Positions 1-12,702 of a stretch of DNA of 30,222 nucleotides are shown here, piece by piece. Position 1 is the stretch's first letter. Every line of letters starts with the position of its first letter. Below the pieces are notes generated by a model that saw only the letters and a list, made by a program, of their open reading frames with translations, did not search any database and was not told the origin of the DNA. This stretch comes from a virus. A program made the translations under genes and the position numbers. The stretch is from IMG/VR virus record IMGVR_UViG_3300022833_000035, positions 1 through 30,222 of that record. One strand, written 5' to 3'.

Positions 1-292
1 ACATTCCGTGATTGTCAGCTGCACTTGGCAAATCTACAAGTTCGGCATATGCTATCCAGGTTATATCGTCGTTTGTAATAGTTAGTTTTGAAAGTAAACT
101 TGCACCAGTGACATTATTTAAATCAGCACGAGCAATTTCAAAACCACCGGCAATTTTTCCGTTATACACTCGAAGGCTACTAGAATCACTATTAAAATAA
201 ACTTGACCGTTAGAACCTACGTTACGATCTAAGAAATCGTTAGGTCTTGGTATAATTCTAATTCTATCTACAATTGGTGCTGATGACGCCAT
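1..292 (-). CDS. Virion structural/fibre protein, N-terminal part (runs off left edge)
   Basis: A minus-strand frame starts at an ATG at 290-292 and stays open for 97 codons to the left edge, so only the N-terminus is visible. It begins MASSAPIVDRIRIIPRPNDF and continues with a segment containing NGQVYFNSDSSSLRVYNG. That segment resembles the short G-x-(I/V)-x-(F/Y)-N-x-D...(V/E)-Y-N-G module seen in the fibre proteins at 9373-12702 and 28377-30222. A good Shine-Dalgarno sequence, AGGAGA (303-308), lies upstream, and a late-promoter-like AATAAATA lies further upstream at 315-322. I infer a tail-fibre or other virion component of a T4-like marine phage. Most of the protein is outside the window, so its domain content and length cannot be stated. 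Confidence 0.75.
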   Translation of the reverse strand, partial: MASSAPIVDRIRIIPRPNDFLDRNVGSNGQVYFNSDSSSLRVYNGKIAGGFEIARADLNNVTGASLLSKLTITNDDITWIAYAELVDLPSAADNHGM

Positions 293-314
293 GCTGTTGC
301 TGTCTCCTATATTG

Positions 315-322
315 TATTTATT
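315..322 (-). promoter_or_regulatory. T4-type late promoter-like box, leftward
   Basis: Read on the minus strand the bases are AATAAATA, seven of eight matches to the T4 late promoter core TATAAATA. The box lies 23 bases upstream of the ATG at 292, with AGGAGA between. It is one half of a divergent pair with the box at 362-369. Short AT-rich matches can arise by chance; position is the main support. Confidence 0.45.
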
Positions 323-361
323 ACCTACAAGCCAAAATGTATAATCAGTAAAAACTTGTAC

Positions 362-369
362 AATAAATA
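362..369 (+). promoter_or_regulatory. T4-type late promoter-like box, rightward, for the halogenase/oxygenase operon
   Basis: AATAAATA on the plus strand, seven of eight matches to TATAAATA, lies about 77 bases upstream of the first plus-strand start codon (446). It is the best candidate for driving 446-8944, because every downstream gene in that block overlaps or abuts the previous one. A second, weaker candidate is TATAAAAT at 416-423. If the late box is used, the operon would be expressed late, together with virion proteins. Confidence 0.45.
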
Positions 370-445
370 TGTTAGAGGAGCTAATTCATATCTAAAAGAT
401 TATTGAAAAATTGCTTATAAAATAAACAATTAAAGGAAAAGATAT

Positions 446-502
446 ATGACCGAATTTACCCCAATTCGAGATAGAGTATTGATTGAAAAAATTAAGAGTT
501 GA
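446..502 (+). pseudogene. 18-codon leader ORF, probable N-terminal remnant of a GroES-like co-chaperonin
   Basis: The ORF encodes MTEFTPIRDRVLIEKIKS and then TGA. The segment PIRDRVLIEK matches the start of GroES-family co-chaperonins (P-L-H/R-D-R-V-L-V/I-x-K), which normally run to about 95 residues. Nothing GroES-like follows in any frame: four bases after the stop codon an unrelated gene begins. A strong Shine-Dalgarno sequence, AAAGGAAAAG (432-441), lies five bases before the ATG, so the peptide is probably translated. Its end contains AAGAG (494-498), spaced correctly for the next ATG at 506, which suggests it now works as a leader that couples translation to the downstream gene. The GroES assignment rests on about ten residues and is tentative. 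An assembly error or a chance resemblance are alternatives. Confidence 0.55.
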
Positions 503-505
503 TCT

Positions 506-1258
506 ATGTTCTTTTGTAAACCTAAAGTTCCAAACATAACATTTTCTACATTTGATCCGTTTTTATTAAAGAATTTGCCGCCAGTTTCTAGCAATAAGAT
601 GTTGCCAGATTGGTTTAAAGAAACTTCTCCAATAATTCCTACCGAACAACAAAATCCACACTTTGAACCTCATCACGGATCCACAATTAGAAAATGTCCT
701 GCAATAAACGATTATTTTTCCACCGGGATAACAGTACCACTATGGAGTGATCTTGAAGTTTATGTTGATCCAAAAAATCAAATATTAGAATGGAAATACG
801 CAAACGTATACAAAGAAATGTCTATGATATCAAGTCATTCTGCTGAACAATTTCCGCAGTTGTCTTCCAAGTACTTGCATACTAAGATTCTAAGCCCGTG
901 GATTGCACATTGCAATTCAAATGTTCAGTGGTTTATGACCAAACCTACATATCTAACTTCTGCGTTTGACGATCAAAATGTTGTGTTCTGTGATGGGAAT
1001 GTTCAATTTAGGCATAACTTCAACATGCATGTTAATTTATTTTTTCCAATCACATCATCGAGTTATACTGTAAAATTTGAAGCTGGAACGCCTTTTCTAA
1101 AATTAATTCCACTTACCGAGCACAAGATAAATATAACAACTAAATATTGCACAAGAGAATATTATGATTATGCAGCGTTGTCGGCACGGAGAATAGCATT
1201 TTCCCCTTCGGTATTGTATAACAGATTAATTAAAAATAGTAAATTTAAGGAGAAATAA
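506..1258 (+). CDS. Phage protein of unknown function, 250 aa, first full gene of the enzyme operon
   Basis: I do not recognise a named family with confidence. The protein has no signal peptide or membrane segment that I can see. Visible features are an N-terminal LPDWFKE segment (about residues 33-39), a middle segment with KCPAINDYFSTGITVPLW (about 63-80), and an aromatic-rich C-terminal half with alternating beta-type sequence (HNFNMHVNLFFP, then a short G-T-P-F-L-K-L-I-P-L strand). The pattern suggests a compact beta-rich fold, perhaps cupin- or SapC-like, but no metal-binding motif is clear. It starts four bases after the leader ORF stop codon and ends two bases before the next start codon, so it belongs to the same transcript as the halogenases. 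SapC and JmjC/cupin genes often neighbour flavin-dependent halogenases in bacterial genomes, which makes an accessory role in halogenation conceivable but unproven. Confidence 0.8.
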   Translation: MFFCKPKVPNITFSTFDPFLLKNLPPVSSNKMLPDWFKETSPIIPTEQQNPHFEPHHGSTIRKCPAINDYFSTGITVPLWSDLEVYVDPKNQILEWKYANVYKEMSMISSHSAEQFPQLSSKYLHTKILSPWIAHCNSNVQWFMTKPTYLTSAFDDQNVVFCDGNVQFRHNFNMHVNLFFPITSSSYTVKFEAGTPFLKLIPLTEHKINITTKYCTREYYDYAALSARRIAFSPSVLYNRLIKNSKFKEK

Positions 1259-1259
1259 C

Positions 1260-1580
1260 ATGAGTTCATCACCAGAAGTTGGAGCAGGTACCTGGATGCC
1301 TCCAGAACCACCGGTACATAATCTAGCAACATCTATTGATCATTTTCAAGCACAGACCACCATCCGAGAACAGAATGTTGAAGAGTTAACAAGAGTTTGC
1401 AACGTCCTGCGAGATACCAAATCAAAATTTGAATCAAACGAACTAAGTTCAGAGGCGGTACTGTCTATTCTTTCAGAATTTAAATCGGCAGAATTTAAAA
1501 TCAAACACCCTGACGCGAACATGTTGACTGCATTGGCTGCTGCAATTACTAGCTTCGAGAAAGAGGTCAGCGTTAAATGA
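1260..1580 (+). CDS. Small helical protein with a single Trp in a Gly/Pro-rich N-terminal tail
   Basis: This 106-aa protein has no family I recognise. Its first 21 residues look unstructured (MSSSPEVGAGTWMPPEPPVH) and contain the only Trp, W12, followed by four prolines (P14, P15, P17, P18). Residues from about 28 to the end are rich in Glu, Lys, Leu and Ala, with no proline except P84, and should form a helical domain. A strong Shine-Dalgarno sequence (AAGGAG, 1247-1252) precedes the ATG. The stop codon overlaps the halogenase start as ATGA (1577-1580), so the two are translationally coupled. A Trp-Pro tail immediately upstream of a tryptophan-type halogenase and a prolyl-hydroxylase-like gene makes it a candidate protein substrate or substrate carrier. 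That is inference from position and composition only. Confidence 0.8.
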   Translation: MSSSPEVGAGTWMPPEPPVHNLATSIDHFQAQTTIREQNVEELTRVCNVLRDTKSKFESNELSSEAVLSILSEFKSAEFKIKHPDANMLTALAAAITSFEKEVSVK

Positions 1581-3181
1581 TTAAACCGCTAGGCAAAATA
1601 GTCATTGTTGGTGGCGGCAGTGCCGGGTGGATGACCGCTGCTGCATTGGTTAAGGCATTTCCTGCTAAGGAGATTATTGTGATTGAAAGTCCCGATGTTC
1701 CAATTCTAGGTGTTGGCGAAAGCACGCTTGGTGGAATCAATGACTATTGCAATTTTTTAGAAATTGACGAAAAAGATTTCATGACACACACTGATGCCAG
1801 TTATAAAATGAGCATCAAATTTACCGACTTTTATGAGAAAGATTCGGGCGGATTTCATTATCCGTTTGGACATCCTTATATAAAAGACACGCACGATGGC
1901 ATGCAAGATTGGCTAACTAAAAAAGCACTGTATCCTGATACACCAGTTCAGGATTTTGTAAATTGTTTTTTTCCTGCTGCTGCATTATGGGATCAAAATA
2001 AATTTGCATTAAATAAGTACGGTCAGTTTGACAGCTATAGTCCAGATTCAGATGTAGCATATCACTTCGATGCAACTAAATTTGGTGCATGGCTGAGAGA
2101 AAGATATTGTAAGCCTAGGGGAGTTGTTCACCTTGCCAACACAGTTGTTAGCGTTAACACCAACGACAATGGCATAGAGTCATTAGTGCTGGATGACGGA
2201 CAGCAGGTAATGTCAGATCTATTCATTGACTGTACAGGATTTAAAAGTCTATTGCTAGGCGGAGCATTAAAGGAACCGTTTGTTTCATATAATCACATGT
2301 TACCAAACAACCGTGCCTGGGCCACTAGAATGCCTTACAAGGACAAAGACCGTGAAATGGAACCGTTTACCAATTCAACAGCATTGGGCAACGGATGGTC
2401 ATGGAATATTCCTAGCTGGGAAAGATTAGGCACAGGATACGTATACAGCGACAAGTACATTAGCTCAGAGGATGCATTAGAAGAATTTAAAGTGTATCTC
2501 ATGAGTGACAAGATGATTTGTCCTAGAACAAGAGAAGAAGTTGACTCACTGCAATACAGAGATATTCCTATGCGAGTAGGAATTCACCGACGAACGTTTG
2601 TTAAAAACTGTGTAGCCATCGGGCTAAGTGCTGGATTTATTGAACCACTAGAGTCTAATGGATTGTTTTCAGTACATGAATTTTTATTCAAATTGATCAA
2701 AACACTGCAACGCCCGGCTGTTACACAATGGGACATGGATGTATATAATGGAACTGTGTTTGGCTTGTGGCGCAATTTTGCTGAATTTGTTGCCTTGCAT
2801 TATGCGTTAAGTATCAGAACTGATACAGAGTATTGGAAAGCTAATGCCAACCGGGTATACGAGCCAGGCATGGAAACTCTAGAACCCAATAATGCTGTTG
2901 GATTTTTTAGACTGCAAGAAGACAAGATGTTTAATTTTAGAACTCCCGACATTGGCGGAATTACATGGGTCAGTGTGGGTATGAATTATTTTATTCTAGA
3001 CAAAGTCACTGTAGATTTAAGAGAAAAATATCAAAAAGTGTCATTGAAAAAACAGATGGATCCAATTTTTAGAATGTTTGAAGAGCGAAAAACAAGGTGG
3101 TTAGAAGCGGCAAAAAATCAACCTAGTTTATATCAATATCTAAAAACCCATATACACAAAGACAATACAAAGGAACAATAA
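1577..3181 (+). CDS. Flavin-dependent tryptophan-type halogenase 1
   Basis: At 534 aa this has the usual length of PrnA/RebH-type halogenases, which use FADH2, O2 and halide to make HOCl that is delivered through a lysine to an aromatic carbon. The FAD-binding GGGSAGW is at residues 12-18, and a GVGEST motif is at 45-50. The lysine in SYKMSIKF (K77) aligns with the catalytic lysine K79 of PrnA. HFDATKFGAWL (163-173) matches another family block. The halogenase signature WxWxIP is present as WSWNIP (274-279). The active-site glutamate is in FIEPLESNG (E359), where PrnA has ESTG, so Thr is replaced by Asn in the halide-binding turn, whose contacts are described as backbone. All key residues are intact, so it should be active. 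It overlaps the upstream gene by ATGA and the downstream gene by TAATG. No flavin reductase is visible, so a host enzyme would have to supply FADH2. Confidence 0.92.
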   Translation: MIKPLGKIVIVGGGSAGWMTAAALVKAFPAKEIIVIESPDVPILGVGESTLGGINDYCNFLEIDEKDFMTHTDASYKMSIKFTDFYEKDSGGFHYPFGHPYIKDTHDGMQDWLTKKALYPDTPVQDFVNCFFPAAALWDQNKFALNKYGQFDSYSPDSDVAYHFDATKFGAWLRERYCKPRGVVHLANTVVSVNTNDNGIESLVLDDGQQVMSDLFIDCTGFKSLLLGGALKEPFVSYNHMLPNNRAWATRMPYKDKDREMEPFTNSTALGNGWSWNIPSWERLGTGYVYSDKYISSEDALEEFKVYLMSDKMICPRTREEVDSLQYRDIPMRVGIHRRTFVKNCVAIGLSAGFIEPLESNGLFSVHEFLFKLIKTLQRPAVTQWDMDVYNGTVFGLWRNFAEFVALHYALSIRTDTEYWKANANRVYEPGMETLEPNNAVGFFRLQEDKMFNFRTPDIGGITWVSVGMNYFILDKVTVDLREKYQKVSLKKQMDPIFRMFEERKTRWLEAAKNQPSLYQYLKTHIHKDNTKEQ

Positions 3182-3804
3182 TGTTTATCAACAATTTATT
3201 TTCGGGACATATCGAAGCAAGTGCAACCGTTGGAGGTTGCATTGATATTTTTGAAAATGTTTGGCCTAATCCAGAAGAAACAATTCAACAAATAGAAACG
3301 ACCTGTGCCAATATTGAATCAGGCGTAGGATGGGGTAGGGCTACCACTGTGGGACAAGGGCATTTACAACAAGCAAGGACTAATTTACACCTTAGTGTTA
3401 CTGGGTCTGGGCAAGGTTCAAACAGTCAACCAATGCAAGACATACACAATCAAATGTATTTTTTGCTGTTGGCTGCTACTGTTCCTTATGTTAACAAATA
3501 TCAAATAAACGAACCAATATATCACGAGCCGTATAATGCATTAAAATATCGTGCCGGCGAAGGGTACAAAGAGCACTACGACGGCGGGACAGATATTGGT
3601 CGTGCAGTGAGTGCTATTATCTACCTTAACGATAATTACGAAGGTGGGGAAATTGAATTTCCAAATTTTAAAGTCAAATTAAAACCAGAAAAAGGAATGT
3701 TGATTCTGTTCCCATCAAACTACGCCTACCGACATGTTGCTCACAATGTTACAAGTGGAACAAAATATTCATTAGTTACCTGGTTGCATGATAGACCAAT
3801 ATGA
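3181..3804 (+). CDS. Prolyl-4-hydroxylase-like Fe(II)/2-oxoglutarate dioxygenase
   Basis: This 207-aa protein carries the double-stranded beta-helix pattern of P4Hc enzymes in its C-terminal half. The metal triad is H132-x-D134 (in EHYDGG) and H185 (in YRHVAHNV), with K195 in TSGTKYSLVTW as the 2-oxoglutarate anchor. The segment SAIIYLNDNYEGGEIEFP between them is typical of prolyl 4-hydroxylases. Family members hydroxylate proline or related residues in proteins or small molecules, consuming 2-oxoglutarate and O2. The N-terminal 110 residues are less conserved. The gene starts at a TAATG overlap with halogenase 1, and its own stop codon lies inside TGATATG, which also holds the next start codon. 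The exact substrate cannot be read. Its closeness to halogenase 1 and to a Pro-rich small protein suggests a peptide or protein target. Confidence 0.88.
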   Translation: MFINNLFSGHIEASATVGGCIDIFENVWPNPEETIQQIETTCANIESGVGWGRATTVGQGHLQQARTNLHLSVTGSGQGSNSQPMQDIHNQMYFLLLAATVPYVNKYQINEPIYHEPYNALKYRAGEGYKEHYDGGTDIGRAVSAIIYLNDNYEGGEIEFPNFKVKLKPEKGMLILFPSNYAYRHVAHNVTSGTKYSLVTWLHDRPI

Positions 3805-3805
3805 T

Positions 3806-4453
3806 ATGAACAATATTGAAAAATTTAAATCTAAGGGGTACGTTTACATCAAAGATGCTATTGATGCTGACCTACTCTCATTAATTTCTAACTATTCATT
3901 AATCGACGAGCAACAAAATTATAGCCCCGAAGAAGGGCCTCATTGTCAAATACGTAACTCACATAGTAGTTATGGTGATCCGCTAATGGAATCTATGCTG
4001 ATGCATATGCTTCCTGTAATGGAACAAAATACGGGTCTCAGTTTGTACCCAACATATTCTTACTATCGAGTGTATAGGCCCGGAGCCGAACTGCACAGTC
4101 ATACCGATCGACCCAGCTGCGAAGTTTCAACTACTATTACATTTAAGTTTGATTACAAAGAACAAACTGGTTCTTATTCTTGGCCTATCTTTATGGATGG
4201 TAATCTATGTGAAATGAACCCCGGAGATCTTGTAATCTATCGCGGATGCGATTTAGAGCACTGGAGAGAAAAATTTATTGCGCCAGAAGGTTCGTACCAT
4301 ATTCAGGCGTTCCTACACTATGTTGATGCTAACGGACCTTTTTCAAGTTATAAGTGGGATGGAAGACCCAGTATTGGTTTTTTAAAAACATCAAAACTTC
4401 CGCACAATAAATCAGAATCATTAACTAAATCATACATAAGGTTCACCGAGTAA
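3806..4453 (+). CDS. Fe(II)/2-oxoglutarate-dependent dioxygenase, phytanoyl/aspartyl type
   Basis: From the ATG at 3806 the protein is 215 aa. An in-frame ATG at 3788 would add six residues and overlap the previous gene by 17 bases. I prefer 3806 because the junction reads TGATATG, exactly as at the starts at 7762 and 8354. With numbering from 3806, the metal ligands are H99-x-D101 in HSHTDRPS and H152 in CDLEHWREKF, after a GDLVIYRG turn. HIQAFLHYVD follows, as in many phage and bacterial enzymes of this group. The opening KSKGYVYIKDAID is also typical of PhyH-like proteins. It probably hydroxylates a small molecule or side chain. The substrate is unknown. It lies in the operon between the prolyl-hydroxylase-like gene and an OxyA gene. 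Confidence 0.82.
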   Translation: MNNIEKFKSKGYVYIKDAIDADLLSLISNYSLIDEQQNYSPEEGPHCQIRNSHSSYGDPLMESMLMHMLPVMEQNTGLSLYPTYSYYRVYRPGAELHSHTDRPSCEVSTTITFKFDYKEQTGSYSWPIFMDGNLCEMNPGDLVIYRGCDLEHWREKFIAPEGSYHIQAFLHYVDANGPFSSYKWDGRPSIGFLKTSKLPHNKSESLTKSYIRFTE

Positions 4454-4454
4454 C

Positions 4455-5042
4455 ATGATCAAAATTTACGATGATATTCTTGAAACTGCAGAGTCAGATC
4501 ACATTGAGAAATTTTTAAAAGATTCAAAGTTTCCTTGGTTTTTTGCAAACACTGTTAGCAATCGCACAGTTGAACTAGAATATGCAGAAATAGATAGCGA
4601 TCACAATACTCGAGAGTCAGTGTTACTTGGACATAGTTTTTACCAAAACGAAAAGCAAGAATCGATCAATTATAAAATATCAGATTTTGTGCTTGATCGA
4701 TTCATAAGTAGGTCGGGTATATTGTTTAAAAATCTTATAAGATCAAAAGCAAATTTACAATTTAAGTCTTCTGAATTTGACTCTACAAATTATACAACTC
4801 CGCATGTTGATGCTCTGACACCGCATTTTGTTCTTATATACTATGTCAACAACAGCGATGGCAACACTGTAATTTTTGATAGAATTCATGGTCAGGCCAA
4901 AACAGATTATACTATTATTAAAGAAGTAGAACCAAAAAAAGGAAGATTTTTATTATTTGATGGCAAACATTATCATGCTGCCAAGTTTGCATTAACCAAT
5001 ACTGTTAGACTCAACATTAATTTTAACATTATATGCACATAG
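4455..5042 (+). CDS. Phage-type Fe(II)/2OG oxygenase, OxyA family, copy 1
   Basis: This 195-aa protein is one of three paralogues in the window (also at 7176 and 7762) that share one plan. An N-terminal helical segment with a FPWFF-type aromatic block is followed by H-x-D, a YYVNNSDGNTVIF strand pair, a distal His and an R-L-N-I-N-F-N end. The predicted ligands are H117-x-D119 (TPHVDALTPH) and H174 (KHYHAAKFA), with R185 as the 2-oxoglutarate anchor. The architecture matches small 2OG-Fe(II) oxygenases common in T4-like marine phages, whose substrates are unknown. It starts one base after the previous stop codon, and its last ten bases overlap the next gene. Compared with the other two copies, the middle (residues 60-90) is diverged and the F-D-S-T-N-Y loop before the H-x-D is different, so these are old duplications. 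Confidence 0.85.
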   Translation: MIKIYDDILETAESDHIEKFLKDSKFPWFFANTVSNRTVELEYAEIDSDHNTRESVLLGHSFYQNEKQESINYKISDFVLDRFISRSGILFKNLIRSKANLQFKSSEFDSTNYTTPHVDALTPHFVLIYYVNNSDGNTVIFDRIHGQAKTDYTIIKEVEPKKGRFLLFDGKHYHAAKFALTNTVRLNINFNIICT

Positions 5043-5614: not shown

Positions 5615-7176
5615 ACCAATCTGTTGACACTAATTATAAATTTATCATTGTAGGAGGTGGCAGTGCTGGTTGGATCACTGCATTATTTGTTCAAAAACAA
5701 TTTCCTTCAAGTAGTATTACTGTAATACAAAGTAGCGAAATTGGTATACTAGGTGCCGGCGAAGGAACAACTCCTCATATTATAGACTTTCTAGATGAGA
5801 TTGACATACCAGTAAGCGATCTTGTTAAACATGCCAATGCTACTATAAAAAACGGTATACGATTTTCCAACTGGAATGGAGATGGAAAATATTATCACCA
5901 TTCCTTTCCAGATAATTACGATCTAGATCATACACTGATTAGTAAATTACCACATACTGATTATCCTCTTTTAGATTTAGAATATATCGCCAATGAGAAA
6001 TTATTTAACGATATCAATTTCAATACAATAGCAAGTGAAAGAAATTCTGTAAGATTTATTCCTGATTCCACAGCAGCATATAAAGATCTAGATCCAATTT
6101 TACATTTTAAAAGATTAGGTAATATAGCATTGCACTTTGATGCCACTAAGCTCGCAGCATATTTAGAAAAAGTTGGAATATCGAGAGGAATCAATGTAGT
6201 TGATGATATAATTACTAGTATTGTTACAGACGATCATGAATATATCGAATCTATTGTGTGTAAAACATCAATAATAGATGGTGATTTTATTTTTGATTGT
6301 TCGGGATTCAAAAGGTTAATCATAGGAGAATTCTATAAAACTCCTTGGATAAGTTATAAAAAATACCTGCCTGTAAAACGAGCCATGCCGTTTTTTATTC
6401 AAAATCCTACCAACATAATTCCCCCATATACTGATTCACTGGCAATGAAGCACGGATGGATGTGGCGTATTCCAGTACAAGGTAGATATGGATGCGGATA
6501 TGTATTTGACAGCGATCAAATTACCAACGATGAAGCTAAGGCAGAAATAGATACAGTACTAGGATTTGAAACTGATGTTCCGCGAACAATTGATTTTGAA
6601 CCAGGTAGATTTGAAAAAATATTTGTAAAAAACTGTTTATCTATTGGACTGTCCAGTGGATTTATTGAACCGTTAGAAGCAACTTCTATCTGGACTTCAA
6701 TTATGATGTTACAGTCATTGATAAAAAATATTGGTGCTGTCATTACTAGAGATCAAATACTAGTTGATAAAATTAACAATCGATTTTCTACATTAACTGA
6801 TAACACGTTAGGTTTTGTATATTTTCACTACATTACAAATAGATCCGATACAGAGTTTTGGTCAAATTTTACTAGCAATAATACAATTCCAGATTCTTTG
6901 TTGCCATTACTCGAACATTCTAAAACTACAATCCCATCGTACGACGACTTTAAAGGAATTGGCGAAGACTGGGGACTCAAAAGTTTTTATGCATGCGGAA
7001 ATGGTCAGCAGTTTTTTAATCCAGCTTTTGCCAAGAAAATTTTTGATTCATTAAATACTGGACAAAGACAAGGTGAGTATTGTAATATTAAAAATCAATA
7101 TTTTAAAAATTTAAATCTAAATCTTACTACCTTAATCGATCATCATTCTTTTTTAGATTATATTAGGAATAATTAA
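5611..7176 (+). CDS. Flavin-dependent tryptophan-type halogenase 2
   Basis: At 521 aa this is the second complete halogenase in the operon, only distantly similar to the first outside the motifs. The FAD-binding GGGSAGW is at residues 15-21 and GAGEGTTP at 48-55. ATIKNGIRF places K80 at the catalytic lysine position, HFDATKLAAYL is at 175-185, and the WxWxIP signature is WMWRIP at 283-288. The active-site glutamate is E356 in GFIEPLEATS. The PrnA ESTG turn reads EATS here, unlike the ESNG of halogenase 1, so the halide/substrate pocket probably differs between the two. All key residues are present. It begins in an ATGA overlap with OxyB copy 1 and ends in a TAATG overlap with OxyA copy 2. A distinct substrate, or a distinct site on one substrate, is the simplest reading of two diverged copies. 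Confidence 0.92.
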   Translation: MNQSVDTNYKFIIVGGGSAGWITALFVQKQFPSSSITVIQSSEIGILGAGEGTTPHIIDFLDEIDIPVSDLVKHANATIKNGIRFSNWNGDGKYYHHSFPDNYDLDHTLISKLPHTDYPLLDLEYIANEKLFNDINFNTIASERNSVRFIPDSTAAYKDLDPILHFKRLGNIALHFDATKLAAYLEKVGISRGINVVDDIITSIVTDDHEYIESIVCKTSIIDGDFIFDCSGFKRLIIGEFYKTPWISYKKYLPVKRAMPFFIQNPTNIIPPYTDSLAMKHGWMWRIPVQGRYGCGYVFDSDQITNDEAKAEIDTVLGFETDVPRTIDFEPGRFEKIFVKNCLSIGLSSGFIEPLEATSIWTSIMMLQSLIKNIGAVITRDQILVDKINNRFSTLTDNTLGFVYFHYITNRSDTEFWSNFTSNNTIPDSLLPLLEHSKTTIPSYDDFKGIGEDWGLKSFYACGNGQQFFNPAFAKKIFDSLNTGQRQGEYCNIKNQYFKNLNLNLTTLIDHHSFLDYIRNN

Positions 7177-7760
7177 TGTTTACTGTTGTTAAAAATGCAA
7201 TACCTGCGCAGTATCAAGAACACATTGCATCTCTTATGAATAAGATATCTTGGAAATGGCACGGTAATACTTCGTATGCTGATACCAGCAGTAGGTATCA
7301 AGAGATGCAGCAGTATCCTAATATTGTTGACAATGGGCAGTTTACGCATCCTATCTTGGATGATGGCACAGTATTTTCATCTGACATAGGGCTACTTATT
7401 CCTGTATTGTACATGTTTGCAGACAAGGTAGGTGTACATGTCAACAGTATATTAAGGATACGAATTAATCTCACGATACAAGATAAAACATTTACGCAGG
7501 AAAATTATAATTATCCTCACACGGATATGATGCCATCTAGAGCGTTTTTGTACTATATAAACGATAGCGATGGAGACACTGTATTATTCAAAGAAACTGC
7601 GGTTGATAATGCAGACGCATTACCTAAACAATTCAATATCATGGAAAGAATAACTCCCGAAGCTGGTAAAGGCGTATTCTTTGATAGCTGTAGATTTCAT
7701 GCAAGTTCTAATCCTGTAACTTGCAAAGCTAGATATGTTATAAACTTTAATTTTATTTGA
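7176..7760 (+). CDS. Phage-type Fe(II)/2OG oxygenase, OxyA family, copy 2
   Basis: This 194-aa protein is built like the genes at 4455 and 7762. H115-x-D117 is in NYPHTDMMPSRAF, the strand pair YYINDSDGDTVLF follows, and H175 is in CRFHASSNPV, with R186 in the closing A-R-Y-V-I-N-F-N. The spacing between H-x-D and the distal His (58 residues) is close to that in copy 1 (55) and copy 3 (63). The ATG shares an A with the stop codon of halogenase 2 (TAATG), and its own stop codon lies in TGATATG before copy 3. It shares the S-S-N-P-(V/I) motif after the distal His with copy 3 but not with copy 1, so copies 2 and 3 are the closer pair. Confidence 0.85.
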   Translation: MFTVVKNAIPAQYQEHIASLMNKISWKWHGNTSYADTSSRYQEMQQYPNIVDNGQFTHPILDDGTVFSSDIGLLIPVLYMFADKVGVHVNSILRIRINLTIQDKTFTQENYNYPHTDMMPSRAFLYYINDSDGDTVLFKETAVDNADALPKQFNIMERITPEAGKGVFFDSCRFHASSNPVTCKARYVINFNFI

Positions 7761-7761
7761 T

Positions 7762-8352
7762 ATGCTATATAAAGACATCCTTACCAAAGAGCAACACACA
7801 ACACTGTATAATTTAATAACTGGATTAGATTTTCCCTGGTATTATCAACCCAACATTGCATATATTGTTGATCTAACCGCAAAAGTTGATCCAACTCTGT
7901 GTCGAAGCTTTGGGCTAACACATACAATATGGGACATTGAAAAAGGTAAAGTTTCAGAAGTATTATCCCATATGGGAATACTAGCTGACAACTTTACAAA
8001 ATTATCTGGAGTTAAGCCTAATAATTTTATAAGGATTAAAATTAATTTACAAACTCCTGTAGTCAATAACAATCCTAGCAAGTATAACGGCGCACATGTA
8101 GATCGTTATACTCCTCATTCTACGCTAGTGTACTATCTTAATGACAGCGACGGAGATACATTTATTTTTAATGAAGTATTTGACGAAACTGATTCAAAAA
8201 CTTGGCCTCAGAATGTTATTCCTACCGTAAAAGAAAGGATAACTCCTGTATCAAATTCGTTATATCACTTTGATACAGGGCTTAGGTATCATTCTAGTAG
8301 TAACCCAATTACAACTGATAGACGATATACTATAAACTTTAATTTTAACTGA
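7762..8352 (+). CDS. Phage-type Fe(II)/2OG oxygenase, OxyA family, copy 3
   Basis: This 196-aa protein has the same fold pattern: a FPWYYQ aromatic block at about 24-29, H112-x-D114 in GAHVDRYTPHST, YYLNDSDGDTFIF at 124-136, H177 in LRYHSSSNPI, and R188 in the final R-R-Y-T-I-N-F-N. All predicted catalytic residues are intact. The start codon follows the previous stop codon as TGATATG, and the gene ends the same way before the last gene of the operon. With copies 1 and 2 it forms a set of three diverged paralogues. Their retention with intact active sites argues for separate roles rather than redundancy. The substrate is unknown. Confidence 0.85.
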   Translation: MLYKDILTKEQHTTLYNLITGLDFPWYYQPNIAYIVDLTAKVDPTLCRSFGLTHTIWDIEKGKVSEVLSHMGILADNFTKLSGVKPNNFIRIKINLQTPVVNNNPSKYNGAHVDRYTPHSTLVYYLNDSDGDTFIFNEVFDETDSKTWPQNVIPTVKERITPVSNSLYHFDTGLRYHSSSNPITTDRRYTINFNFN

Positions 8353-9372: not shown

Positions 9373-10566
9373 TTAGATATCCCTGTATCTAACAACTACA
9401 ATACCTGGGCCACCGCCACCGGCCACGTTTGGGACACTGTGAACTCCACCACCACCGCCGCCACCGGTATTGACAGCACCTGCTTGCCCGTTTGCAGCAG
9501 CTCCGTTTGGACTGCCTGGATGTATTCCAGCGCGGCCGCCGCCGCCAACTCCACCTGCTGCACCGTCTAATCCATAGTGCCCTGGCGTAGACGGGCCGTG
9601 TGTGCCATTGCCGCCACCCCCTGCATAATACGACACTGTACCACTAATTTGACTAGCAAGTCCTGCACCACCGTTACCGCTGGTGTTTGAGTTCAGTGCT
9701 GGTTTACCGTGACTTCCAGCGCCGCCACCTCCACCGCCTGCGTGTACAACTGTATTAGTTACCCAGCTATATCCGCCGCCATGTGCCCCTGCTCCGCCTG
9801 GATGTCCTTGTCCAACTATGCCCCCACCGCCACCGTTGGGACCATTTTGAAGACTGATTTGATCTCGGTTATTGGATGTGTTGTATCCTATAGTAGGACC
9901 TTCGTGCCAGAAATGATAGTTATCACTACCATGCCCCATGGGGGCTTGTGGCGTGGCGCCGCCACCACCGCCACTTGTTGGGCCGTGCGCGCCTGGACCA
10001 CCTCCACCTGATCCACCGCTGCCGTGCGGCGCAGGACTCTCGGCTCGAACATACGGCAATCCTCTACCACCACCAACTGCTGTTAGATTAGTCAGTGATG
10101 ACCCTACTATCGATGAATTTCCGCCTGGAGCAGCTAAACTGTTATGACTAGGTTCACCACCACCGCCACTACCAACGTTTACTGTGTAACTACCAGACTG
10201 TAACTGAACTTGCGATTCGTAAATCATTCCGCCGGCGCCGCCACCACCGCCAATCCCAGCTCCCCCACCTCCACCGGCTACCAATAAAACTTCAACTGTT
10301 CCGGCGTACGGCATTGTGAATGACGTGGCTCCTGCAGTGGTAAATGTGTGTATTCTATAACCGCCAACTGTGCTGACAGTGCCACCGGTTGCGTAGTTAG
10401 AACCGTTGGTCAATGCCCACTCAGTTCCTGTGTATATTTCGTTTCTGTTTAGGTCAGTGTTGAAGCGGATCATTCCTGCTTGGCCTACAGGACGCTGAGC
10501 TGTGGTTCCTTTTGCTATCTGTACAAATCCAGTATCGTTAACTGTTAAATTTTTTAATATTGCCAT
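9373..10566 (-). CDS. Glycine-rich tail-fibre/adhesin protein 1
   Basis: In this 397-aa protein residues 1-60 carry an N-terminal module, MAILKNLTVNDTG then Q-R-P-x-G-x-x-G-M-I-R-F-N-T and I-Y-T-G-T-E-W. Residues 60-96 form a short beta segment (GGYRIHTF, then VEVLLVAGGGGGAG). Residues 97-385 are dominated by runs of Gly separated by short variable loops, and the protein ends GPGIVVVRYRDI. This layout fits the glycine-rich domain of phage tail adhesins and may form polyglycine-II-like sheets, as in T-even gp38 adhesins; the loops would then contact the receptor. A GQGHPGG motif (9793-9813) recurs in the two paralogues. GC content is visibly higher than in the neighbours because of GGN codons. 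It has paralogues directly upstream at 10588 and 11662. Specific host receptor: unknown. Confidence 0.82.
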   Translation of the reverse strand: MAILKNLTVNDTGFVQIAKGTTAQRPVGQAGMIRFNTDLNRNEIYTGTEWALTNGSNYATGGTVSTVGGYRIHTFTTAGATSFTMPYAGTVEVLLVAGGGGGAGIGGGGGAGGMIYESQVQLQSGSYTVNVGSGGGGEPSHNSLAAPGGNSSIVGSSLTNLTAVGGGRGLPYVRAESPAPHGSGGSGGGGPGAHGPTSGGGGGATPQAPMGHGSDNYHFWHEGPTIGYNTSNNRDQISLQNGPNGGGGGIVGQGHPGGAGAHGGGYSWVTNTVVHAGGGGGGAGSHGKPALNSNTSGNGGAGLASQISGTVSYYAGGGGNGTHGPSTPGHYGLDGAAGGVGGGGRAGIHPGSPNGAAANGQAGAVNTGGGGGGGVHSVPNVAGGGGPGIVVVRYRDI

Positions 10567-10587
10567 TTTTGTTTATTATTCCTATTA

Positions 10588-11658
10588 TCAGTATCTGTAT
10601 CTAACAACTACAATACCTGGGCCGCCTGGACCCGAACTGTCAGGAGCAGGATGACTTGCCCCGCCACCACCACCACCACGGTTCGTACCTCCAGCTGTTG
10701 CTTGCACTGCTCCGCCGTTTGGACTTCGACCGCCTTGTCCAGTGCCATCCTGGGCGCCACCAGAACATGGACCCCATGCATATATAAAATCGTGGCCGCC
10801 TGCTCCACCGCCTGCTGCATAAATTACGCTGGATCCTGTTATGGTGCTGGCAACACCGCGACCGCCTGCTGCATCGGCACCGTTGGAAAATCTACTCACC
10901 CCTTTTGATCCTGCACCACCACCACCACCTCCAGCGTGATTGGCGCCACCACCTTGGCTGCTGCCTGGATTTGGATGACCTGGACCGGAGCCGTGATGTC
11001 CGTAACCACCTGGATGTCCTTGACCTGCTAGTCCGTAACCACCCGGATGTTCTCCAGGGTAGCTGGTGTAGTTTGTTCCCGGAGTACCCAGTCCACCAGG
11101 ACCGCCACCACCTGATCCACCATTTGTGATGGCATTGTATCCCTGGTTATACGGGCAGCCGCCGCCGCCTGCCAATGCTGTTAGTGATCCAAACTGTGAA
11201 TTGGCGCCTTGTCCGCCTACTGGGCCGTGTCCGCCCGGGCCTACCCCTCCACCTCCTACCACTGTGGTGTATGCAGTGCCGCCAACAACAGGAAAATTGG
11301 CATTGTAAATGTAGCCACCTGCACCGCCACCCCCGCCAATACCAGCTCCGCCGCCACCGCCGGCAACTACCAACACTTCAACTCTGCCAGTGTAGGGTGC
11401 TGTGAATGAATTGGATCCGTTGGCAGTATATGTGTGTATTCTGTAACCACCCACAGTGCTGACTGTGCCGCCAGCTGCAAGATTTCCTACAGATCCGTCA
11501 ACTGCTACCCATGCACCGTTTGAATACATTTCAACTCGAGAGGTAGTTGTGTTTGTTCTAATATCGCCGTTGACAGGAGAAATTCGATCACCAGTAGTAC
11601 CTGATGCAACGTTGGTTGATCCAGTATCATTAATTGTTAAATTTTTTAGCGTTGCCAT
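10588..11658 (-). CDS. Glycine-rich tail-fibre/adhesin protein 2
   Basis: This 356-aa protein is the middle member of a tandem set of three. It starts MATLKNLTINDTGSTNVASG, followed by a degenerate N-terminal module (D-R-I-x-x-x-x-G-D-I-R-T-N-T, then V-E-M-Y-S-N-G-A-W). The linker GGYRIHTYTANG and the strand VEVLVVAGGGGGAG match protein 1 closely. The glycine-rich part spans roughly residues 97-345 and is the most His- and Pro-rich, including GQGHPGGYGHHGSG (motif at 11005-11025). It ends GPGIVVVRYRY. Loop sequences between Gly runs differ from those of its neighbours while the frame segments are conserved, as expected for diversifying adhesin tips. A GAGGAT Shine-Dalgarno sequence precedes the ATG, inside the end of the upstream gene. 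Confidence 0.82.
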   Translation of the reverse strand: MATLKNLTINDTGSTNVASGTTGDRISPVNGDIRTNTTTSRVEMYSNGAWVAVDGSVGNLAAGGTVSTVGGYRIHTYTANGSNSFTAPYTGRVEVLVVAGGGGGAGIGGGGGAGGYIYNANFPVVGGTAYTTVVGGGGVGPGGHGPVGGQGANSQFGSLTALAGGGGCPYNQGYNAITNGGSGGGGPGGLGTPGTNYTSYPGEHPGGYGLAGQGHPGGYGHHGSGPGHPNPGSSQGGGANHAGGGGGGAGSKGVSRFSNGADAAGGRGVASTITGSSVIYAAGGGAGGHDFIYAWGPCSGGAQDGTGQGGRSPNGGAVQATAGGTNRGGGGGGASHPAPDSSGPGGPGIVVVRYRY

Positions 11659-11661
11659 AGT

Positions 11662-12702
11662 TTATCCTCTATATCTTACAATAACTACTCCGGGGCCGCC
11701 TGCGCCGTTTGTTCCAACATCTGGATGATTTGCAGCACCACCACCACCACCTGTGTTAGTAATGCCATTTTGCACAGGTTGATTACCTCCGTTAGCTGTA
11801 CCACTATCGCCGCCACCGCCTTTGCCGCCTTTGCTGGCCGCTCCGTGAGGAACACTTACACTGTGTGCACCTCCTGCACCACCTCCTGCACGCCACACAG
11901 TAGCTCCACTAATGCTACTGGCCTGCCCTTCCCCGCCTCGGGCTTGGCCATATCGGCCACCACGATTATATCCTTGTGTGCCAGCGCCGCCGCCGCCGCC
12001 GCCACCGTAGTGTGTGCCTTCTGGGGTGCCGTTGTAGTGACTTCCGAAACCGCCTGGGTGGCCTTGGCCTACAATGCCAACTCCGGCTGTGTTAAATGTT
12101 TGACTTTGATAGCTATAACCGCTGCCGCCACCGCCGCTGCCCCCAGCATTGGTTGGTCCCGGCCCTGGTACATAATATCCAGTGCCGGCCCCCCCAGCTA
12201 TAGCTGTAAGACCTACAGGAGTGCCGCCTCCAAATACTGAATCAGCGCCTCTATTTCCGTTTGGGCCATGGCCTGCTAATGCACCACCTCCGGCACCGAC
12301 AACAGTAGGATACGCTGTTCCGCCAGTAACTGGCACACCCTGCACATAAAGATATCCACCTGAACCGCCCCCACCGCCTAGGCCGTTTCCACTGCCGCCT
12401 CCGGCAATCACCAGCACATCTATTATGCCTGTGTTGACTGGCGTAAATGTGCCAGAACCGGATGTAAAGGTGTGTATTCTGTATCCTGCTGCTGTGGTAA
12501 TGCTGCCACCTGTGCTGGAATTACCTGCTGTTGGTTCCTGCATAGCTATCCACGCAGATCCATTATAAAATTCATTTGCACTTAAGGTTGTGTTGTATCG
12601 CATCATGCCAGCAATAGGACTACCAGGGCGTTCAGCTGTGGTACCTGATGCGATTCGTAAAAATCCAGTATCGTTAATGGTTACGTTTGTTAATGTTGCC
12701 AT
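11662..12702 (-). CDS. Glycine-rich tail-fibre/adhesin protein 3
   Basis: This 346-aa protein is the first glycine-rich gene to be transcribed. It starts MATLTNVTINDTG, then A-E-R-P-x-x-P-I-A-G-M-M-R-Y-N-T and E-F-Y-N-G-S-A-W. GGSITTAAGYRIHTF and the strand I-D-V-L-V-I-A-G-G-G match its paralogues. The glycine-rich part covers about residues 100-335, with the shared GQGHPGGFGSH (motif at 12049-12069) and the ending GPGVVIVRYRG. Its ATG abuts the TAA of the S74-domain fibre gene (TAAATG, 12700-12705). The position just after a chaperone-tipped fibre protein resembles T-even gp37-gp38, where gp38 is a glycine-rich adhesin. I see no homology to gp37 itself, so this is an analogy. Confidence 0.82.
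   Translation of the reverse strand: MATLTNVTINDTGFLRIASGTTAERPGSPIAGMMRYNTTLSANEFYNGSAWIAMQEPTAGNSSTGGSITTAAGYRIHTFTSGSGTFTPVNTGIIDVLVIAGGGSGNGLGGGGGSGGYLYVQGVPVTGGTAYPTVVGAGGGALAGHGPNGNRGADSVFGGGTPVGLTAIAGGAGTGYYVPGPGPTNAGGSGGGGSGYSYQSQTFNTAGVGIVGQGHPGGFGSHYNGTPEGTHYGGGGGGGAGTQGYNRGGRYGQARGGEGQASSISGATVWRAGGGAGGAHSVSVPHGAASKGGKGGGGDSGTANGGNQPVQNGITNTGGGGGAANHPDVGTNGAGGPGVVIVRYRG

Follow-up and report, generated by a model that had tools for sequence, protein, structure and literature searches.

A small phage protein co-inherited with a flavin-dependent halogenase and a prolyl-hydroxylase-like oxygenase is a candidate client of both enzymes

SrpI brominates Trp on proteusin peptides, which combine a structured, helical portion with a Pro-rich linker and a disordered portion (PMC10858898), and MibH chlorinates a peptide Trp and relies for its activity on the hydroxylation of proline in that peptide (PMC12615548). 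The active site of the viral halogenase VirX1 is large and accessible, and the enzyme takes bulky substrates (PMC8407142). Reviews treat cyanophage-type halogenases as auxiliary metabolic genes, and one suggests an antibiotic-like protection.

The DNA analysed here (the window) is the 30,222-base virus record IMGVR_UViG_3300022833_000035, a fragment of a T4-like aquatic phage; T4-like genes, including tail sheath and tube, are present in the relative record G003 (locus L132). An earlier note on this sequence had proposed that a short ORF overlapping the start of a halogenase gene encodes a RiPP-like or carrier substrate with a single Trp in its N-terminal tail.

The operon and its enzymes

The enzyme operon of the window lies on the plus strand in the order PHROG_7084-like gene, small protein gene, halogenase gene (FDH1) and P4H-like 2OG oxygenase gene (Table 1), followed by other 2OG enzymes, a second halogenase (5611) and further 2OG enzymes up to 8944. 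FDH1 has the features of a flavin-dependent (Trp) halogenase: in addition to its match to PF04820, the GxGxxG motif is present as GGGSAGW and the WxWxIP motif as WSWNIP. At the level of sequence alignment, its similarity to RebH and PrnA ends at about residue 433, before the C-terminal free-amino-acid lid, and its similarity to VirX1 reaches residue 524. The second gene downstream of the small protein, which the earlier note had described as prolyl-hydroxylase-like, indeed matches PF13640, with HYD...H visible in the alignment; prolyl specificity of this enzyme is assumed from its family. Computation shows that the predicted sequences of both enzymes carry intact family motifs.

Genes for PHROG_7084-superfamily proteins (for example 506-1258 in the window, L146 8580-9368 and L057 5246-5995) accompany about 28 of the viral FDH loci that were fetched, with relatives also in haloarchaeal viruses. 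A PHROG_7084-like gene lies directly 3' of the VirX1-like halogenase gene in Syn10, and this protein may partner viral halogenase/2OG clusters in general; its predicted structure (pLDDT 31) gave no usable model.

Convergent with the operon, on the opposite strand, three paralogous genes for Gly-rich fibre-tip-like proteins containing His, Tyr, Pro and some Trp (9373-12702, minus strand) adjoin the enzyme cluster, and these proteins are possible substrates. The FDH/2OG cluster of Sf-CH11 is also adjoined by a Gly-rich gene (L145 4782-5840). The PHROGs labels "ferrochelatase" and "DNA endonuclease V" at 3788-5042 and 7176-8352 look like carried-over misannotation, since several of these genes also match 2OG oxygenase families. 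A full GroEL gene is often found just 5' of the Trp-tail trio cluster (L018 2685-4274; L025 4409-6001; L026 5058-6647). Other viral FDHs are preceded by tail-assembly-chaperone-like proteins with SDWTQ..D..LS motifs and Trp-Pro ends (Table 1).

Table 1. Coordinates of the trio, its parts and associated genes (window positions unless a locus is named)
Feature	Location	Strand	Evidence or remark
PHROG_7084-superfamily protein, 250 aa, function unknown, first operon gene in the Trp-tail sub-clade	506..1258	+	phrog_7084 E 4e-22
Shine-Dalgarno AAGGAG of the small gene	1247..1252	+	direct reading; SD-like sequence also 5' of homologues
Small protein, 106 aa, FDH1/P4H-linked family	1260..1580	+	ORF, homologue alignment
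N-terminal tail, residues 1-21, Pro-rich, predicted disordered	1260..1322	+	AlphaFold, Pro counts
W12-MPPEPP segment, the window's version of the IPPGTEHVWTPPE motif	1293..1313	+	Trp 8/8 in sub-clade, top-conserved stretch
Helical body, residues 22-105, four predicted helices	1323..1574	+	AlphaFold
ATGA overlap of small-gene stop and FDH1 start	1577..1580	+	direct reading; also L005, L018, L025, L026, L032
FDH1, Trp_halogenase family PF04820, closest solved structure VirX1	1577..3181	+	Pfam E 1.6e-103
P4H-like 2OG-Fe(II) oxygenase, HxD...H	3181..3804	+	PF13640 E 2e-15; ortholog beside FDH1 in all 15 small-protein loci
Tandem paralogue of the small protein	L041 2875-3177; L038 3800-4102; L042 4540-4842; L043 918-1220
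Tail-assembly-chaperone-like proteins before FDHs	L094 5365-5916; L097 5372-5932; L104 338-886; L071 5524-5937

A co-inherited trio

The small protein belongs to an undescribed family with 15 distinct members, a count that may miss distant relatives because no stretch was conserved enough for a five-member profile. IMG/VR was queried with the small protein, the halogenases and the PHROG_7084 protein; 14 members were placed in one alignment, to which L142 was added. All homologues are in metagenomic viral contigs of IMG/VR, some with cut flanks. When the small proteins of the window, L018, L004 and L008 were searched by tblastn against 50,697 phage records, no relative was returned. The lone match in 84,980 prokaryote genomes, in a Rhizobiaceae MAG (L118), was antisense to a sulfatase-like gene and was rejected as spurious. 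In the six larger records searched, the small gene is present as one copy per genome.

All 15 small genes are located directly 5' of FDH1 or one tandem paralogue away. Within the fetched flanks, a small gene accompanies 15 of the 16 FDH1-clade halogenases and none of about 92 other viral FDHs; the count covered 111 distinct rows of FDHs, of which three were truncated duplicates. In the FDH tree, every FDH1 with a small-protein partner falls in one supported clade (100/99), and the Trp-tail and no-Trp sub-clades separate. An ortholog of the P4H-like gene lies no more than 20 nt 3' of FDH1 in every small-protein locus (L039 was substituted here for L038, whose contig ends at this point). This ortholog is absent from the closest outgroup FDHs, and also from L007, the sole FDH1-clade member without a small gene. 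The FDH1 of L007 adjoins several radical-SAM-like genes (19-4884, minus strand).

The small protein, FDH1 and the P4H-like enzyme are therefore a co-inherited trio. On the tree this amounts to one gain and one loss, which is strong as linkage but does not represent many independent events. The question raised by the earlier note, whether homologues are always next to a halogenase, could be answered positively: every homologue neighbours a member of the one FDH clade and the P4H-like ortholog, and the searches returned none lacking these two genes. Identity to the window's small protein is only 11-25% among the other members, compared with 67-78% for their FDH1 neighbours, so that a fast-changing small protein holds a fixed place beside a slowly changing enzyme.

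The stop codon of the small gene (TGA, 1578-1580) overlaps the halogenase ATG at 1577, and the same ATGA arrangement is present in six type I loci, including the window (Table 1). On computational evidence, most FDH1 genes in the window's sub-clade are translationally coupled to the small gene. That the small protein is linked exclusively to two modification enzymes, and coupled in this way, argues for a direct partnership. Since the small protein is found only in aquatic phages with that halogenase and the neighbouring hydroxylase-like enzyme, it probably serves these two enzymes as a dedicated partner or target. Its absence from most viral FDH/2OG clusters indicates that FDHs in general do not need it.

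We also considered that the small protein merely shares the operon and acts in virion or fibre assembly without direct involvement of FDH1; it would then be a helical protein, either a chaperone or a decoration protein, with a fibre-binding tail. The position of the locus in the tail region of a T4-like phage, adjoining fibre genes, is consistent with this, as are the tail-chaperone-like ORFs 5' of some other viral FDHs. However, the small protein is strictly confined to the FDH1/P4H clade and absent from other phages, and profile and fold searches gave no structural-protein family or fold match, which makes such a role improbable.

The N-terminal tail and the role of the small protein

The window's small protein begins MSSSPEVGAGTWMPPEPPVHN... 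(translation of ORF 1260-1580, plus strand, 106 aa). The earlier note had described this ORF exactly in all points checked, namely its length, W12 as sole Trp, the four prolines that follow (P14, P15, P17 and P18) and the overlap with the halogenase start. Its impression that the rest looks helical agrees with the AlphaFold model, in which residues 1-21 are disordered (pLDDT about 48) and helices are predicted at 22-36, 40-58, 64-78 and 86-105, at low-to-moderate confidence (mean pLDDT only 66.7, pTM 0.48). A fold search with this model gave no match below E 0.001, and family and fold searches gave no match to carrier proteins. An acyl-carrier (ACP/PCP) role, which would call for a conserved phosphopantetheine Ser (DSL) in a four-helix bundle, was rejected, as the alignment of the Trp sub-clade has no conserved Ser in the helical part. 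Weak family matches (phrog_1596, KH_GLD-3, sigma-70 and XopF; E 0.014-0.1) received no support from the homologues and were also set aside.

The family divides into two types by its tails. In type I (n=8; window, L004, L005, L018, L025, L026, L027 and L032) the tail consensus is IPPGTEHVWTPPE, with Trp in 8/8. A single Trp in a 21-residue tail would arise by chance in roughly 20-25% of cases at 1.2-1.5% Trp, by arithmetic, and is unremarkable alone; it is conservation that places W12 beyond chance, as no stretch of the alignment is better conserved than the 12 columns around the Trp (mean pairwise identity 0.68 versus 0.39 overall). This stretch is predicted to be disordered (AlphaFold, low confidence) yet is the most conserved in type I, as would be expected of a motif for binding or modification. 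In the window itself the tail deviates from the consensus, with GAG in place of PPG and no TEH.

The sister type II (n=7; L008, L040, L041, L038, L142 and the divergent L042 and L043) has a proline-rich tail of the form MPYNPEDPNSD..., from which the motif Trp is absent in 7/7, with an uncertain tail alignment between the two types. Four of these tails have Tyr3 and others have His, with no fixed aromatic position, and L042 and L043 have a different Trp near residue 30. Despite the missing Trp, the FDH1s of type II share about 70% identity with those of the Trp sub-clade. The genomic context also differs: the PHROG_7084 gene is directly 5' of the small gene in 7/8 type I loci and was not found in type II loci. 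Four type II loci encode a second, tandem small paralogue (Table 1) with a PP-containing tail lacking the motif Trp, and two of these four pass the family profile. The tandem paralogue is divergent, and has an invariant Trp in [HF]W[HY]A where its helical part begins. Its match to MIOX (E 8e-4) was below the cut-off and was taken as chance. The conservation anticipated by the earlier note thus holds for the proline-rich tail, which is the sole tail element common to all 15 members, and fails for the Trp, which is present in 8 of the 15. W12 as a universal target is contradicted by the sequences of the sister sub-clade. The note had named Trp-less homologues as a refutation; a dedicated client or carrier of the enzyme pair survives their discovery, whereas a universal Trp-substrate model does not.

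The explanation we favour, with a rough probability of 0.43, is that FDH1 and the P4H-like enzyme share the 106-aa protein as their dedicated client, its tail being modified by one or both. The helical body would serve as a recognition handle for the enzymes, and the flexible proline-rich N-terminal tail would enter one or both of them and be modified by Trp halogenation where Trp is present, and/or by prolyl or other hydroxylation. Physical contact, modification, the residue modified and the role of the modified protein are steps that we infer; the phage context suggests that this role may be virion or fibre-related. As prolines are the only tail element shared by all members, hydroxylation would be the likelier modification if one is universal. 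That W12 itself is the halogenated residue is doubtful. A bolder version, in which the phage protein is the natural substrate of the viral halogenase, with exchangeable N-terminal Trp-Pro tails halogenated and hydroxylated on the folded full-length protein, and which involves neither a RiPP nor small-molecule metabolism, is on balance unlikely. A client role is supported by the linkage within the trio, by the conserved tail motif of type I and by the kinship of FDH1 with VirX1, whose active site admits bulky substrates. Against it are the 7/15 homologues without the motif Trp, the lack of such a protein in most viral FDH/2OG clusters, the departure of the window's tail from the consensus and the failure to find a protease, transporter or RRE nearby.

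A close alternative is that the helical protein is an adaptor or docking subunit that binds FDH1, and perhaps the P4H-like enzyme, and uses its unmodified tail as a short linear motif to recruit the enzymes to the real substrate, for example tail-fibre proteins encoded nearby. FDH/2OG clusters without the small protein are located in cyanophage tail-fibre modules (Sf-CH11 and Syn10), suggesting that the general substrate may be a fibre, and the window's cluster ends beside the three Gly-rich fibre-tip-like genes. Swappable docking motifs would fit exchangeable tails on one body, and the paralogue in L038 and L041 (also L042 and L043) retains a PP-containing tail without Trp; loss of Trp in the sister sub-clade is neutral for an adaptor. 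However, this leaves unexplained why Trp-Pro-Pro is the most constrained part beside Trp-halogenase-family and prolyl-hydroxylase-like enzymes. In addition, a recruiting motif shared with other proteins was not found: a scan for W-PP and PPG..W in other ORFs of the relative phage records returned only the small proteins and one unrelated match. Sequence cannot separate client from adaptor. We slightly favour the client because of this constraint, and because there are known FDHs (SrpI, MibH) whose peptide substrates a structured leader presents; we give it no more weight because the Trp is missing from half of the members although FDH1 varies little.

The RiPP-like proposal of the earlier note fared less well. 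In a RiPP-type precursor, the tail would be a core that is cleaved off a C-terminal follower and set free as a peptide carrying halogen and hydroxyl groups. The size of the protein, its coupling to tailoring enzymes (co-located in 15/15) and a body with interchangeable tails are compatible with this. As to a conserved modifiable residue in such a core, Trp is present in 8/8 of one sub-clade and absent from 7/7 of the other, and prolines occur in all. However, the scanned neighbours were 2OG enzymes, FDHs and PHROG_7084, with no protease, transporter, cyclising enzyme or RRE (the last checked by Pfam only) among them, and Pfam and NCBIfam gave no precursor family. We consider a RiPP-type precursor very improbable.

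The trio offers a concrete, testable candidate for a protein partner of a viral halogenase. Matched natural controls are available in the sister sub-clade without the motif Trp and in L007, where the small protein is missing. Should the tail prove to be modified, phages would possess a means of halogenating a protein, and the system could supply halogenases that act on peptide tags.

Comparison with known systems

In bottromycin-type precursors the core is N-terminal and the follower C-terminal, a topology that the small protein resembles by analogy only, as there is no shared sequence and the locus has no YcaO or P450 genes. VirX1 of cyanophage Syn10 (PDB 6QGM) is the closest solved relative of FDH1 and lies in a fibre/2OG cluster beside a PHROG_7084-like gene; Syn10 differs in that tblastn of the phage collection detected no small-protein family member there. 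The MibH/NAI-107 (microbisporicin) system differs in that its substrate is a leader-free lanthipeptide, in contrast to a larger helical phage protein without lanthipeptide enzymes here. What it offers as a parallel is a peptide Trp halogenase that depends on proline hydroxylation of the same peptide, which is a feature of MibH. In the SrpI/proteusin system (SrpE, MprE7) the Trp is C-terminal, after an N-terminal leader, whereas the tail here is N-terminal, the Trp is missing from half of the members and no set of RiPP maturation genes is present. The two systems nevertheless share the pairing of an FDH with a small protein that has a helical part and a Pro-rich disordered part, and in the proteusins the substrate of the halogenase is Trp.
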